DNA from: Dehalococcoidales bacterium
GTDB lineage: Bacteria > Chloroflexota > Dehalococcoidia > Dehalococcoidales > Fen-1064
Length of the DNA: 22,529 nucleotides
Direction: 5' to 3'
Assembly: GCA_028712845.1 (NCBI GenBank)
Contig: JAQTPO010000015.1
Span: 1 to 22,529, forward strand
The position numbers were made by a program, and so were the translations under genes. Shown piece by piece: positions 4,067 to 18,996 of this stretch (positions are counted from its first letter, which is position 1; each line of letters begins with the position of its first letter). The notes below the pieces were generated by a model. It was not told the DNA's origin. It saw nothing but the letters and a program-made list of their open reading frames with translations, and ran no database searches.

Positions 4067-5149
4067 CTATGATTCTTGCAGTTCAGATGGAGATACTCCA
4101 ACAAATGATGCAAAACGTGAAAGTAATATCTGATATCTCCCTATTTGGCTCTCTTTACTGTTCACACTTCGATCCATGAAATCGAATCTAAGTAACTCAT
4201 CATCTACATTAGGTACTCTATCTTTTGACTTTCTTCTATTTTTCACACGTTCATTTTTAAACATCACAAGAAACTCTCGAATTCTCGGGCGATATCGCTC
4301 ACTAGTCTCTCTAACTAGCCAATAATATACCGTGATAGGCCCTTGAGAAGTTAGCAGCGGGTCTCTGGGATTAAATATACTTACCATCCGAGTTAAATTT
4401 GTCTCTACATCACGAGCAGCATTCTCTAAGTTAAGGTTTTGAGATTGTTCTGCCGCTTGCCTAACCATCTTATCAAGTGTGCCCTTTTTCGTATCTGAAA
4501 AACCTCCGAGGAATTCGGTAAGAAGCAACTTTGCTGCAGCATTATAATCATCCAGCCTTCTTACGCTAAATCTGATCCTTGAATTGAAGAATTCATTTCT
4601 CGATATTCTCCGAATTAATTCAGGAACAGGACCTTTCATCGCGTTACGAACTTCCGCTCCCGTCAGAGATTTACTACTTTTATTTAATCTCACGAATAAA
4701 TCATTAATTTTCCCAGGGTCATCTGTAATCACACTTACCATTGGTAACGGGAAATTATCAAACTTTCGAGCTATTTTAGGGTAGTTTGCTTGCAAATCTT
4801 TGTAACTCAAACCTGCCAATTTTAATGTTGTATCTCTTGAGTATACAAAGTCGTTACTGAGTCTTATATTACTATCAAAAAAATCGAAAATAGCCTCGAG
4901 TCTTTGCTTGCCATCAATAACTGCATAAGCTTTGTTAGTTTTATTGAGAGGAGTATTAGTAAATGTAAAATCTGCGAAATAAAGTTTAGGTATATCATAT
5001 TCATTCAGAATTGAATCTATTAATAGAGCTTTGTCCTCATCGGACCACAACTTACCTCTTCTCTGATACTCCGCATTCATTTCTATATTTTCTCTTTCAT
5101 CATTCCACCAGCTCAGTGTTTTTGACGGTAATTGTTCAACTTTAAACAT
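4067..5149 (-). CDS. DUF262-domain protein (ParB-like nuclease fold), second gene of the FRG-DUF262 pair
   Basis: 360 residues. The N-terminal half fits DUF262, the domain of GmrS and many defence proteins: NAEYQRRGKLW near residue 25, the nucleotide or DNA-binding motif VIDGKQRLEAI at about 77-87 (family usually DGQQR), and LFVRLNKSSKSLTGAEVRNA at about 151-170. The C-terminal half is mostly helical and charged. I see no DUF1524 HNH nuclease motif of the kind found in GmrD, so this is a DUF262-only protein. It starts 2 bp after the FRG gene stop, with AAGGTG inside the end of that gene as its ribosome binding site, so translation is coupled. The AT-rich composition and position between repeat blocks suggest acquisition by transfer. 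A defence role is inferred. Confidence 0.85.
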   Translation of the reverse strand: MFKVEQLPSKTLSWWNDERENIEMNAEYQRRGKLWSDEDKALLIDSILNEYDIPKLYFADFTFTNTPLNKTNKAYAVIDGKQRLEAIFDFFDSNIRLSNDFVYSRDTTLKLAGLSYKDLQANYPKIARKFDNFPLPMVSVITDDPGKINDLFVRLNKSSKSLTGAEVRNAMKGPVPELIRRISRNEFFNSRIRFSVRRLDDYNAAAKLLLTEFLGGFSDTKKGTLDKMVRQAAEQSQNLNLENAARDVETNLTRMVSIFNPRDPLLTSQGPITVYYWLVRETSERYRPRIREFLVMFKNERVKNRRKSKDRVPNVDDELLRFDFMDRSVNSKESQIGRYQILLSRFASFVGVSPSELQES

Positions 5150-5151
5150 AT

Positions 5152-5991
5152 TTACACCTTGTACCCGTAAATCCTTTTTATTTCTTTAGCTAGTCCTTCC
5201 AAAGACGGCGATGTTATTATGTCTGTGTAGCCAAATTTTAACATGGACTCGATTAAGTCAGATATTTTCACCTTTGGAAACTCGATTTTGACCAATAAGT
5301 TTTCTGGAAAATCTGAAGTTGAATATATTTCTTCCATAGGAGTGAGAGTGGAGCCAAAGATAGAAAATACACCCCTTTGAACTGTAATGTTCGGGCTATT
5401 ATGGATACCGTACATATTTGCGGGTTCTTTTCTCATAGCTTTAAGATCACTCTGGAATTTGTATCCCCTTAGACCTAGGCTATCATCCGTAGGCAAGATA
5501 ACTCCTCCCTTCCAACGAATCGATTCCAAAACCTTTCTATTCCACTTGCATGGATCAAGTACCCAAACAGCTACATCTTCGTCGTATGTACTACGTTTAC
5601 CGATGGATGTTGAATGTGCAGCTGTTAAAGCAAAATACAAAGCAACAAATGGATTCTCAGTCCAATCTAATAACCTTGTTGGGACTCCTGCATGCCTCAT
5701 ACGAAAAAGTAACTCCCAATAGTGATCTGAGTTATTACTAAATAGTGTGATCGGCTGATTTAGATATGGGAGGCAACGCTGTTTGAATCTTTCTGTAATC
5801 TTATCCTCTAAATCCAGTAATTCTGGTATCTGCTTAATTGTAGGATGTCTGTACAATGAAGGTTGTAAAGGATAGCTGCTTTTGCCACAACCGCGAAACC
5901 ACAACTCTTCATGCCCTTTACAAAGGTCCTCAATAATACCTGTAAAAGACTTAAGGCTGCTTACATTATGCTCAATAAGTAATTTTGTCAT
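5152..5991 (-). CDS. FRG-domain protein, first gene of the FRG-DUF262 pair
   Basis: 279 residues with the FRG domain: ELWFRGCGKSSYPLQPSLYR at about 29-48, and the second block LLFRMRHAGVPTRLLDWTEN followed by PFVALYFAL at about 94-122, which is the classical continuation. The C-terminal third contains the ending SLEGLAKEIKRIYGYKV and no membrane segment. The biochemical activity of FRG domains is not settled; they occur in many phage-defence and toxin-like contexts. The ATG at 5991 has no obvious Shine-Dalgarno, and its upstream leader is very AT-rich. It is followed after 2 bp by the DUF262 gene. The product is presumably a partner or effector of the DUF262 protein; this is inference. Confidence 0.87.
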   Translation of the reverse strand: MTKLLIEHNVSSLKSFTGIIEDLCKGHEELWFRGCGKSSYPLQPSLYRHPTIKQIPELLDLEDKITERFKQRCLPYLNQPITLFSNNSDHYWELLFRMRHAGVPTRLLDWTENPFVALYFALTAAHSTSIGKRSTYDEDVAVWVLDPCKWNRKVLESIRWKGGVILPTDDSLGLRGYKFQSDLKAMRKEPANMYGIHNSPNITVQRGVFSIFGSTLTPMEEIYSTSDFPENLLVKIEFPKVKISDLIESMLKFGYTDIITSPSLEGLAKEIKRIYGYKV

Positions 5992-6068: not shown

Positions 6069-6161
6069 TTTAATGGCAAGCTATTGCATATCACTCTGAC
6101 TCTCTTACGCAAAGAGATAAGAGATTTAAAGTGGCTATAATTAGAGAAAGGCGTCAGATGG

Positions 6162-6181
6162 ATTCCTGCCTGCGCAGGAAT
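6162..6181. repeat. ATTCC-type palindromic repeat
   Basis: ATTCCTGCCTGCGCAGGAAT, an 8-bp stem around CTGC, flanked by GG and GACAG. The same core is at 7596-7615, with near copies at 11191-11210 and 2829-2848. Confidence 0.85.
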
Positions 6182-6211
6182 GACAGTCGGGGGAAAGTAC
6201 CAGAGCCATTC

Positions 6212-6320
6212 CCCCGATTTTCATCGGGGTCAGGATGACAAGAGGGAAATGGGTAGCGCCACTTCTCCCCCCAGTGATTGCCACGCCTCCCGATTTTGTT
6301 GGGATGGCTCGCAATGACAG
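6212..6320. repeat. CCCCGAT hairpin and GATTGCCACGCC-type repeat
   Basis: CCCCGAT (6212-6218) pairs with ATCGGGG (6223-6229) around TTTC. The region 6276-6320, from GATTGCCACGCC to GGCTCGCAATGACA, recurs at 11135-11175 with a shorter middle. Neither contains a credible gene. The minus-strand ORF across this block is repeat-derived. Confidence 0.65.
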
Positions 6321-6374
6321 TGGGGCACTTACGGTGAGGGTATCAATTAAGGTAGAATATAAAGGAAGAATTAA

Positions 6375-6478
6375 TACATCAATCTGTTGAAGATAGTCTG
6401 ATACATTTGTCCGCTGAAAGCGGCTATACATCAGTCTGTTGAAGACAGACCGATACATTTGTCCGCTGAAAGCGGCCA
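6375..6478. repeat. Tandem pair of 52-bp units with two hairpins each
   Basis: Two units (6375-6426 and 6427-6478) start TACATC and end GCTGAAAGCGGC plus two bases, differing at about six positions. Each has a constant hairpin, CCGCT-GAA-AGCGG, and a variable inverted repeat before it; in unit two this is GTCTGT-TGAAG-ACAGAC. A related single unit is at about 2726-2777, where the variable stem is instead ACAC/GTGT. Confidence 0.8.
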
Positions 6479-6484
6479 AAGTAT

Positions 6485-6517
6485 GACGCTGCGGCGTCAG
6501 TATGATGCTGTGGCATC
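6485..6517. repeat. Pair of 14-nt mini-hairpins, 19-nt spacing, before the first crotonase
   Basis: GACGCTGCGGCGTC (6485-6498) and GATGCTGTGGCATC (6504-6517) are perfect 5-bp stems with TGCG and TGTG loops. The spacer is AGTAT and the start-to-start distance is 19, as at 2783-2815. They end about 10 nt before the GGGAGGAG ribosome binding site of the crotonase gene, so they could be in its mRNA leader. Confidence 0.75.
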
Positions 6518-6536
6518 ACGATGTCAGGGAGGAGAT

Positions 6537-7412: not shown

Positions 7413-7595
7413 AAGTTTTATTAGAGGGGCAACAGTGGCACCTATAGTACCACTGAACGCCTCCTCTAACTCAAATCCCCGCTTAAAACGGGGTATGATG
7501 GACTCGCAGCGACAGCGGGGAGAATAGGTGACAGGAGTGTTAAGAACAGACGGGGATGTCTGTTCCACTAGAATGACAGTGGGGGTAGGGACTGG

Positions 7596-7645
7596 ATTCC
7601 TGCCTGCGCAGGAATGACAATTGAGCAGTATGTCGCTGCGGCGTC
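7596..7645. repeat. ATTCC palindrome plus a degenerate mini-hairpin
   Basis: 7596-7615 is the same 20-bp palindrome as at 6162-6181. At 7632-7645, GTCGCTGCGGCGTC is the 14-nt mini-hairpin with one mismatched pair (T against T), again with a TGCG loop. It is a single copy here, without the 19-nt partner. Confidence 0.7.
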
Positions 7646-7648
7646 AAT

Positions 7649-7678
7649 TTGACGGTGATGACTAATTCCAATTATCAT
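7649..7678 (+). promoter_or_regulatory. Possible sigma-70 promoter for the second crotonase gene
   Basis: TTGACG (7649-7654), 18-nt spacer, TATCAT (7673-7678), 36 bp before ATG 7715. The -35 begins just after the degenerate mini-hairpin. Motif match only. Confidence 0.4.
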
Positions 7679-10861: not shown

Positions 10862-10988
10862 CAATAATGACAAAGCTTTTTTGAATACCGACAATCTATA
10901 GGGCGATAAAGAACTGGCGAATCACCCCCCCGTATCGAGTATAGATTCACCATGAACGGGGCAAGCGCACGGAAGGACAGTATCGAGC

Positions 10989-11052
10989 AGGCTGTGAGAT
11001 TCTTCACGGAGTTTACCCTGAGTCATCCAGAACGAAGGGGTCAGAACGACAA
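10989..11052. repeat. Dispersed repeat (copy B of the acr3-leader repeat)
   Basis: Matches 2861-2923 with about five differences: AGGCTG, GAGATTCTTC, CGGAGTTTA, CCTGAGTCATCCAGAACGAAGG. The surrounding gap 10862-11240 has no credible gene; the small minus-strand ORF over 11041-11232 is made of repeats. Confidence 0.8.
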
Positions 11053-11134
11053 GAGAGAGGGTGTCATTCTGAAGGAGTCACAAAGGGACGACTGAATGAA
11101 TCTCAGGGTGGGGAAGAGACGCCTCTCCCATCTG

Positions 11135-11210
11135 GGATTGCCACGCCCCAACAAGTTAGGGCTCGCAACGACAATAGGAGATGGGTCTGGATTCCTGCCT
11201 ACGCAGGAAT
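11135..11210. repeat. GATTGCCACGCC-type repeat and ATTCC palindrome
   Basis: 11135-11175 matches 6276-6320 at both ends (GATTGCCACGCC and GGCTCGCAA.GACA). 11191-11210 is ATTCCTGCCTACGCAGGAAT, the 8-bp-stem palindrome with loop CTAC. Confidence 0.75.
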
Positions 11211-11240
11211 GACCAGGGGGTCGCAACGACAATCAGGCTA

Positions 11241-15300: not shown

Positions 15301-15377
15301 CGGGGTGTAGCGCAGCTTGGTAGCGCACCTGAATGGGGTTCAGGTGGTCGGAGGTTCAAATCCTCTCACCCCGACCA
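15301..15377 (+). tRNA. trnP: tRNA-Pro (anticodon GGG), CCA encoded
   Basis: Folds cleanly: acceptor CGGGGTG/CACCCCG, D-arm GCGC/GCGC, anticodon stem CCTGA/TCAGG with loop ATGGGGT (anticodon GGG, reading CCC and CCU), five-base variable loop, T-arm GGAGG-TTCAAAT-CCTCT, discriminator A, and an encoded CCA. 77 nt. A strong terminator follows after about 12 nt. The last 17 nt of the tRNA recur at 18980-18996. Confidence 0.96.
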
Positions 15378-15880: not shown

Positions 15881-16204
15881 ATGAATAATAAAAAACCGAC
15901 AAACTACGAAGAGTTTGAAGCTGAACTTCTTAAAGATCCGGAAATCCGTAAGGAATATGATGCTTTAAAACCCAAGTATGACATGATAAGAAGTCTGATA
16001 GAACGCCGGAGCGCATTGGCTATCAGTCAGACGGAACTTGCACGAATGATAGGGACAAAACAGCCTGCTATCTCAAGGCTAGAGAAAGGCGATTATAATA
16101 CTACTCTTAGCACTTTCTTTAAGGTGGCAGAGGCTTTGGACCTAGAAATATCTGTAAAAGCCCGGAAAACCGGAAAGCGTGATGGGCAAAAGGTTACTGT
16201 CTGA
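15881..16204 (+). CDS. higA: HigA-type XRE-family antitoxin
   Basis: 107 residues from ATG 15881, with GGGGGAGTGAG just upstream. An N-terminal helical part (EEFEAELLKDPEIRKEYDAL, the usual HigA opening) precedes the Cro/C1 helix-turn-helix at about 47-95: ISQTELARMIGTKQPAISRL and EKGDYNTTLSTFFKVAEALD. It neutralises the HigB-type toxin and should repress the operon through the palindrome in its own promoter. The gene order toxin then antitoxin is typical of higBA. The ending KTGKRDGQKVTV is basic. Confidence 0.9.
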   Translation: MNNKKPTNYEEFEAELLKDPEIRKEYDALKPKYDMIRSLIERRSALAISQTELARMIGTKQPAISRLEKGDYNTTLSTFFKVAEALDLEISVKARKTGKRDGQKVTV

Positions 16205-18955: not shown

Positions 18956-18996
18956 TGGGGTGAGGGTCAACGCTTTCACTCCTCTCACCCCGACCA
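18956..18996 (+). pseudogene. tRNA-Pro relic
   Basis: The 3' part, TCCTCTCACCCCGACCA (18980-18996), is identical to the last 17 nt of the intact tRNA-Pro, including T-arm half, acceptor strand, discriminator and CCA. The 5' part TGGGGTG (18956-18962) matches the acceptor 5' strand apart from the first base. Only 17 nt remain between, so D, anticodon and half of the T arm are lost. A near-copy of the tRNA terminator follows. Confidence 0.75.

Follow-up and report, generated by a model that had tools for sequence, protein, structure and literature searches.

A conserved, closely spaced FRG–DUF262 gene pair from a Dehalococcoidales bacterium as a candidate immune module

The FRG and DUF262 genes and their products

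Adjacent genes for an FRG-domain protein and a DUF262 protein were analysed in a 22,529-nucleotide (nt) stretch of contig JAQTPO010000015.1 from a Dehalococcoidales bacterium (assembly GCA_028712845.1); the whole of this stretch is called the window. By the open-reading-frame list of the window, both genes lay on the minus strand with FRG first, and 2 nt separated the FRG stop codon from the DUF262 gene. The pair comprised the following features (NTPase, nucleoside triphosphatase):

5152–5991, minus strand: FRG gene, 279 amino acids, predicted ADP-ribosyltransferase-fold effector
5614–5907, minus strand: FRG domain proper, residues 29–126, containing strands WFRG (R33) and PTRLLDW (T105–W110)
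5155–5160, minus strand: Shine-Dalgarno-like AAGGTG for the DUF262 gene, within the last FRG codons and 5 nt ahead of the DUF262 ATG
4067–5149, minus strand: DUF262 gene, 360 amino acids, ParB/Srx-fold NTPase domain plus a helical C-terminal half, without a nuclease domain
4640–5080, minus strand: GmrSD_N/DUF262 domain (Pfam), residues 24–170
4901–4915, minus strand: DGKQR motif, residues 79–83, counterpart of the nucleotide-pocket motif DGQQR with K replacing the first Q

A first-pass annotation of this DNA, made from the letters alone, had described a 2-bp gap with the second ribosome binding site inside the first gene, and the boundaries at 5149 and 5152 and the position of AAGGTG confirmed this. 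Its remark that the pair was AT-rich relative to its neighbours also held, as the guanine-plus-cytosine (GC) content was 37.3% versus 48.4% in the rest of the window, and only 4 of 413 overlapping windows of equal size were as low.

Profile searches of both proteins agreed with the domains that had been named. The FRG protein matched Pfam FRG (E=5.6e-20, residues 29–126) and its partner matched GmrSD_N/DUF262 (E=2.7e-17, residues 24–170), each above the curated cut-off. Among 214 FRG proteins, residues R33, G34, L42, R48, E62, H100, T105, R106, L108, D109 and W110, as well as Q205 and G207 beyond the domain proper, showed a conservation of at least 0.99 (rounded), and the near-invariant residues were also kept in 11/11 FRG proteins without DUF262. 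When the FRG model was used in a fold comparison, the 16 VIA entries were every one an ADP-ribosyltransferase, with modest scores, and the list included ParT, MbcT and NatT, toxins of toxin–antitoxin pairs. A profile search of the PDB by sequence gave no credible relative of FRG with a solved structure. The modelled fold, at these modest scores, suggests that FRG may be an ADP-ribosyltransferase-fold enzyme, which would presumably use nicotinamide adenine dinucleotide (NAD+). The available part of PMC9503650 assigns Frg to the ADP-ribosyltransferase superfamily as a possible antiviral effector, perhaps an NADase, and one sentence in it counts Frg among biochemically characterised signal-generating enzymes.

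Residues Q29, R30, D79, G80, Q82, R83, F152 and N156 of the DUF262 protein were conserved at a level of at least 0.99 in 181 DUF262 proteins. Besides DGKQR, it thus possessed the QR (Q29R30) and FxxxN (F152xxxN156) motifs, named as in the available part of PMC12137116. Its fold comparison gave matches to SspE, BrxU and ParB. The absence of an HNH (DUF1524) nuclease domain, noticed in the first-pass annotation, was verified, since neither protein had a DUF1524/HNH match in Pfam up to E=1.

Conservation and mobility of the pair

A search of genome contigs with 40 aligned FRG proteins yielded 495 relatives, the best 80 of which were kept as genomic loci. With a profile made from 39 DUF262 relatives, DUF262 was found directly downstream on the same strand at 67/80 of these loci; this count includes L056, L058, L059 and L071 at a mere 20–21 bits, with L056 confirmed by Pfam. 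Divergent DUF262 genes were revealed by Pfam in five further loci (L057, L061, L065, L066 and L070). After exclusion of L043 and L080, untestable at contig edges, the pair was present in 72 of the 78 testable loci, always with FRG first. Hosts of such pairs included Azospirillum cavernae (L002), Pseudoduganella (L006) and Archangium (L012). The remaining six (L062, L064, L073, L075, L077 and L078) had no DUF262 downstream of FRG, as judged by a Pfam scan of the next gene for L062, L064, L075 and L077 and by the DUF262 profile alone for L073 and L078, the latter with only 458 nt downstream of FRG. The profile matched 26 of 29 pair-bearing genomes, at a single locus each; in the other three, DUF262 is divergent and escapes the profile.

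Spacing was determined for 62 pairs, namely the 63/80 loci with DUF262 above 150 bits and the window, minus L024 and L060 (broken frames, no start). In 58 of them the FRG stop and the DUF262 start were at most 20 nt apart; close adjacency across genomes, a check named in the first-pass annotation, was frequent. Shine-Dalgarno-like motifs, broadly defined and without a control, preceded DUF262 in 39/62. Removal of L040 left 61 pairs from 16 named phyla (four rows without phylum), for which the FRG and DUF262 trees agreed with a Mantel r of 0.755, compared with a permutation maximum of 0.297 (n=2000), an agreement partly due to shared host ancestry.

The pair was also found on viral contigs. On the DUF262 side, the count covered the best 18 loci (L091 and L161–L177, ahead of the weaker L178–L239); FRG was directly upstream in 16 of the 17 with DUF262 at 279 bits or more, a limit chosen after inspection. 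The contig of the seventeenth, L166, starts at the first bases of the DUF262 gene, and the eighteenth locus, L177 (127 bits), was without FRG. On the FRG side, the best 20 of 80 loci comprised nine with the pair, nine with FRG but no DUF262 and two (L081 and L089) at a contig edge; several contigs were common to both counts. A viral scan with the window FRG alone gave no relatives, and a Sodalis pair used as query gave no match in E. coli genomes.

A 648-amino-acid metagenome protein with FRG and DUF262 parts (P0241) was considered as a natural fusion but was not counted, because the end of its FRG part appeared by eye to be out of frame. FRG relatives were detected in 308 plasmid records (tblastn, E 1e-5). 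On K. pneumoniae plasmid pC105-NDM1-IncHI3 (L311), a lone FRG gene adjoined mercury-resistance and insertion-sequence genes. In Escherichia phage PhiR11_1 (L310, 2003–5859), a gene for a 456-amino-acid FRG protein without DUF262 was followed by an uncharacterised 350-amino-acid gene and then by a gene with a sub-cut-off HEPN match, possibly FRG in another defence setting.

Base composition pointed to horizontal transfer. The pair was AT-richer than its own flanks in 48/48 loci with sufficient flanking sequence, the difference exceeding 3 points in 45 and 10 points in 34, versus 5/26 and 0/26, respectively, for random control windows from the same genomes. Terminase and CI-repressor genes occurred near some pairs (Pfam on one representative each), and a Hymenobacter plasmid bore the pair, annotated as FRG and DUF262. 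The family closest to the window was represented by 30 genomes, 23 of which had the bile-acid-symporter-family (SBF) transporter that neighbours the pair; a search aimed at DUF262, and not at FRG, found a close DUF262 in none of the 30 and distant matches in two (E 2.9e-18 and 1.8e-12). This family was reached via a Chloroflexi locus, and the transporter identity of up to 77% makes a Chloroflexota host probable. The SBF transporter was 73–77% identical in 10 relative regions, one of which contained an enoyl-CoA hydratase relative (35–36% identity). Its neighbours there differed from those in the window, so an empty site of the pair could not be demonstrated in these regions. These results supported the two genes as a conserved, closely spaced, mobile-looking module.

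Two closely spaced, mobile and patchily distributed genes could also form a toxin–antitoxin pair, in which an FRG toxin ADP-ribosylates its target or depletes NAD+, the downstream DUF262 protein neutralises it, and any phage defence comes from toxin release; the toxins in the FRG fold list fit this explanation. We nevertheless regard it as unlikely. A pure antitoxin has no obvious need for the near-invariant NTPase pocket of DUF262, DUF262 is the larger of the two proteins, and 6/78 testable FRG relatives lacked it. Moreover, DUF262 proteins are sensors or regulators in GmrSD, SspE, TgvAB and GrwAB, according to the available parts of the literature on them.

Neighbouring genes and favoured mechanism

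In a search for a third component, 10 neighbour families recurred at three or more of the 78 loci, one of them at 12. This commonest family, selected post hoc for that reason, consisted of C5-cytosine-methylase-like genes within 4.5 kb of the pair (6/63 genomic and 6/15 viral loci). Eco29kI-type enzymes were near the pair in five and Vsr in six of the 78 loci; for all three families Pfam confirmed representatives, and other members were assigned by blastp only. A C5-methylase-like gene was found at 7/80 genomic loci versus 0/26 control windows, with queries taken from pair loci and hence favouring those loci. The expectation for the 80 loci was 0.23 (Poisson P ~5e-9), applying to all of them a density of 32 genes (after joining fragments by eye) in ~160 Mb of the 29 pair-bearing genomes; within these 29 genomes alone, 2 were observed versus 0.09 expected (P 0.004). 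In three viral loci (L082, L083 and L086) the methylase gene ended 2–15 nt ahead of FRG, and C5-methylase, Eco29kI-type endonuclease and Vsr genes were also near the pair at L001, L039, L047, L084 and L168. No type I methylase (PF02384) was seen near the pair in the 29 genomes, in a list read by eye.

Such neighbours would suit a modification-dependent restriction system, in which DUF262 recognises modified DNA and FRG ADP-ribosylates DNA or RNA in place of cutting. The available parts of PMC12137116 and PMC10952713, in which DUF262 relatives are presumed sensors of modified DNA, are consistent with it. This explanation seems decidedly unlikely, as the FRG target and DNA binding by DUF262 are purely presumptive, and a system that responds to 5-methylcytosine would, next to a C5 methylase, presumably turn on its own host.

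The constant gene order and spacing, the co-inheritance, the horizontal-transfer signature, fold resemblances and intact motifs speak for a horizontally transferred immune module of two genes. In this reading, towards which we lean, a DUF262 NTPase detects invasion and then releases or activates an NAD+-using FRG effector. For sensing, coupling, chemistry and phage phenotype we infer the following course. The ParB-fold NTPase of DUF262 would sense a feature of invading DNA and, probably via nucleotide binding or hydrolysis, would then release or activate FRG in trans. FRG would consume NAD+ or ADP-ribosylate a cell component, and growth of the infected cell would stop.

The role of sensor or switch is assigned to DUF262, and that of effector to FRG, by analogy, because SspE, GmrSD and BrxU couple DUF262 to a nuclease (in the available parts of their descriptions, a nuclease domain accompanies the DUF262 NTPase) and TgvAB and GrwAB couple a nuclease-free DUF262 protein to a partner. 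FRG is the likelier effector, as the first-pass annotation had supposed, since the FRG model is similar to ADP-ribosyltransferases and the NTPase motifs of DUF262 are intact.

In the window, Pfam identified the neighbours of the pair as the SBF transporter, two enoyl-CoA hydratases and more housekeeping genes, and the evidence for a defence-island location was mixed. A PADLOC scan gave 134 families for 149 neighbours of 25 loci versus 30 for 139 control proteins of these genomes, with at most two members per family; the controls were hand-picked 16.8-kb stretches that contained Zorya and JetA genes, and the longest proteins were dropped (1/150 neighbours and 9/148 controls). Of the defence-island signals that the first-pass annotation had suggested looking for, the recurrent C5-methylase restriction genes alone stood out; the PADLOC comparison pointed clearly neither way, and the pair of the window sat among housekeeping genes. 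An ordinary accessory operon, metabolic or regulatory and horizontally spread outside defence, would fit the transport and fatty-acid genes of the window, the PADLOC result and the housekeeping families that were also among the neighbours of pair relatives. We consider it improbable in view of viral carriage, restriction-gene neighbours, PADLOC-listed families for both genes and a sporadic presence, the 30 genomes searched in the nearest family having given no close DUF262.

A wider form of the immune-module reading is put forward tentatively. The pair may be a pan-bacterial, unnamed module built on a ParB-fold NTPase sensor of the type chiefly known to gate nucleases. Here the sensor would control a distinct effector of ADP-ribosyltransferase fold, which would deplete NAD+ or ADP-ribosylate a target. 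In certain hosts the module might be wired to the C5-methylase genes directly upstream, and so read DNA methylation or protect a restriction system. Bacterial immune systems use DUF262 sensors again and again, and the partners described hitherto have mostly been of the nuclease type. If the reading is true, the conserved combination of DUF262 with an effector resembling ADP-ribosyltransferases would mean that this sensor can also serve immunity based on NAD, and it would provide a test bed for the little-studied FRG domain, with one clade, two genes, near-invariant residues and many hosts.

Known systems and the rest of the window

No system containing both FRG and DUF262 was matched in PADLOC. 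The FRG protein matched 14 PDC-S15 models (best 7e-38), S presumably denoting a single-gene candidate; it is of that family, but the present clade was paired with DUF262 in nearly all testable loci and was not single-gene. The DUF262 protein matched PD-T4-2_A (7.2e-17) and, distantly, NsnA (8.6e-30, profile positions 61–292 of 385), which we take to belong to Menshen. Both systems likewise have a DUF262 protein without DUF1524, but in the available part of PMC10952713 the partner in Menshen is a predicted OLD nuclease and a HEPN partner is listed for PD-T4-2, whereas here it is FRG. PADLOC found no Nsn partner among 12 other window proteins, and the immediate neighbours, the SBF transporter and an enoyl-CoA hydratase, were identified by Pfam only.

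GmrSD-type type IV restriction enzymes share the ParB-fold DUF262 with QR, DGQQR-like and FxxxN motifs, but the pair lacks DUF1524, and DUF262 is here accompanied by an FRG protein, encoded separately and predicted to have an ADP-ribosyltransferase-like fold. The likeness to SspE and BrxU is a structural resemblance of the DUF262 protein. CmdTAC and the RES-domain toxins (ParT, MbcT and NatT) work with antitoxins or a chaperone and are not known to work with DUF262. They are bacterial conflict systems whose effectors have an ADP-ribosyltransferase fold (for CmdTAC by the available part of its description), the fold that is predicted for FRG. TgvAB and GrwAB of Vibrio cholerae, in the available parts of PMC12137116 and PMC12409362, are also two-gene systems in which a nuclease-free DUF262 protein works with a partner, but that partner is DUF262-DUF1524 and not FRG.

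In the open literature searched, no named FRG–DUF262 system was recognised, and the terms 'FRG domain' and 'DUF262' did not occur together in any paper; most preprints and the subscription literature were outside this scope, and a name may exist elsewhere. Within PADLOC and these papers the pair has no name, though FRG alone is already the PADLOC candidate PDC-S15. The first-pass suggestion of an undescribed module may thus stand for the combination but does not for FRG, which is also discussed in the available part of PMC9503650.

Repeat DNA had been taken to bound the pair, and repeats were indeed present upstream:

6138–6529, no strand: dispersed repeat DNA on the upstream side of the pair; its families recur elsewhere in the window and are not specific boundaries

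Dispersed repeat families, e.g. TACATTTGTCCGCTGAAAGCGGCC and GGATTCCTGCCTGCGCAGGAATGAC, occupied the intergenic gaps 2752–2929, 6138–6529, 7572–7657 and 10981–11213. Repeats as insertion boundaries were rejected because the same families sat between other window genes (2752–2929, 7572–7657 and 10981–11213), and the 63 nt separating the pair from the next gene contained no repeat of 18 nt or more among those listed. Promoter and terminator predictions were no better than those for shuffled sequence. Elsewhere in the window, a proline transfer RNA gene (GGG, 15301–15377) had a degraded copy of its 3′ end ~3.6 kb downstream (18965–18996). Between them lay a low-GC stretch and an HTH_3 gene (15881–16204), and this interval may be what is left of an integrated element.
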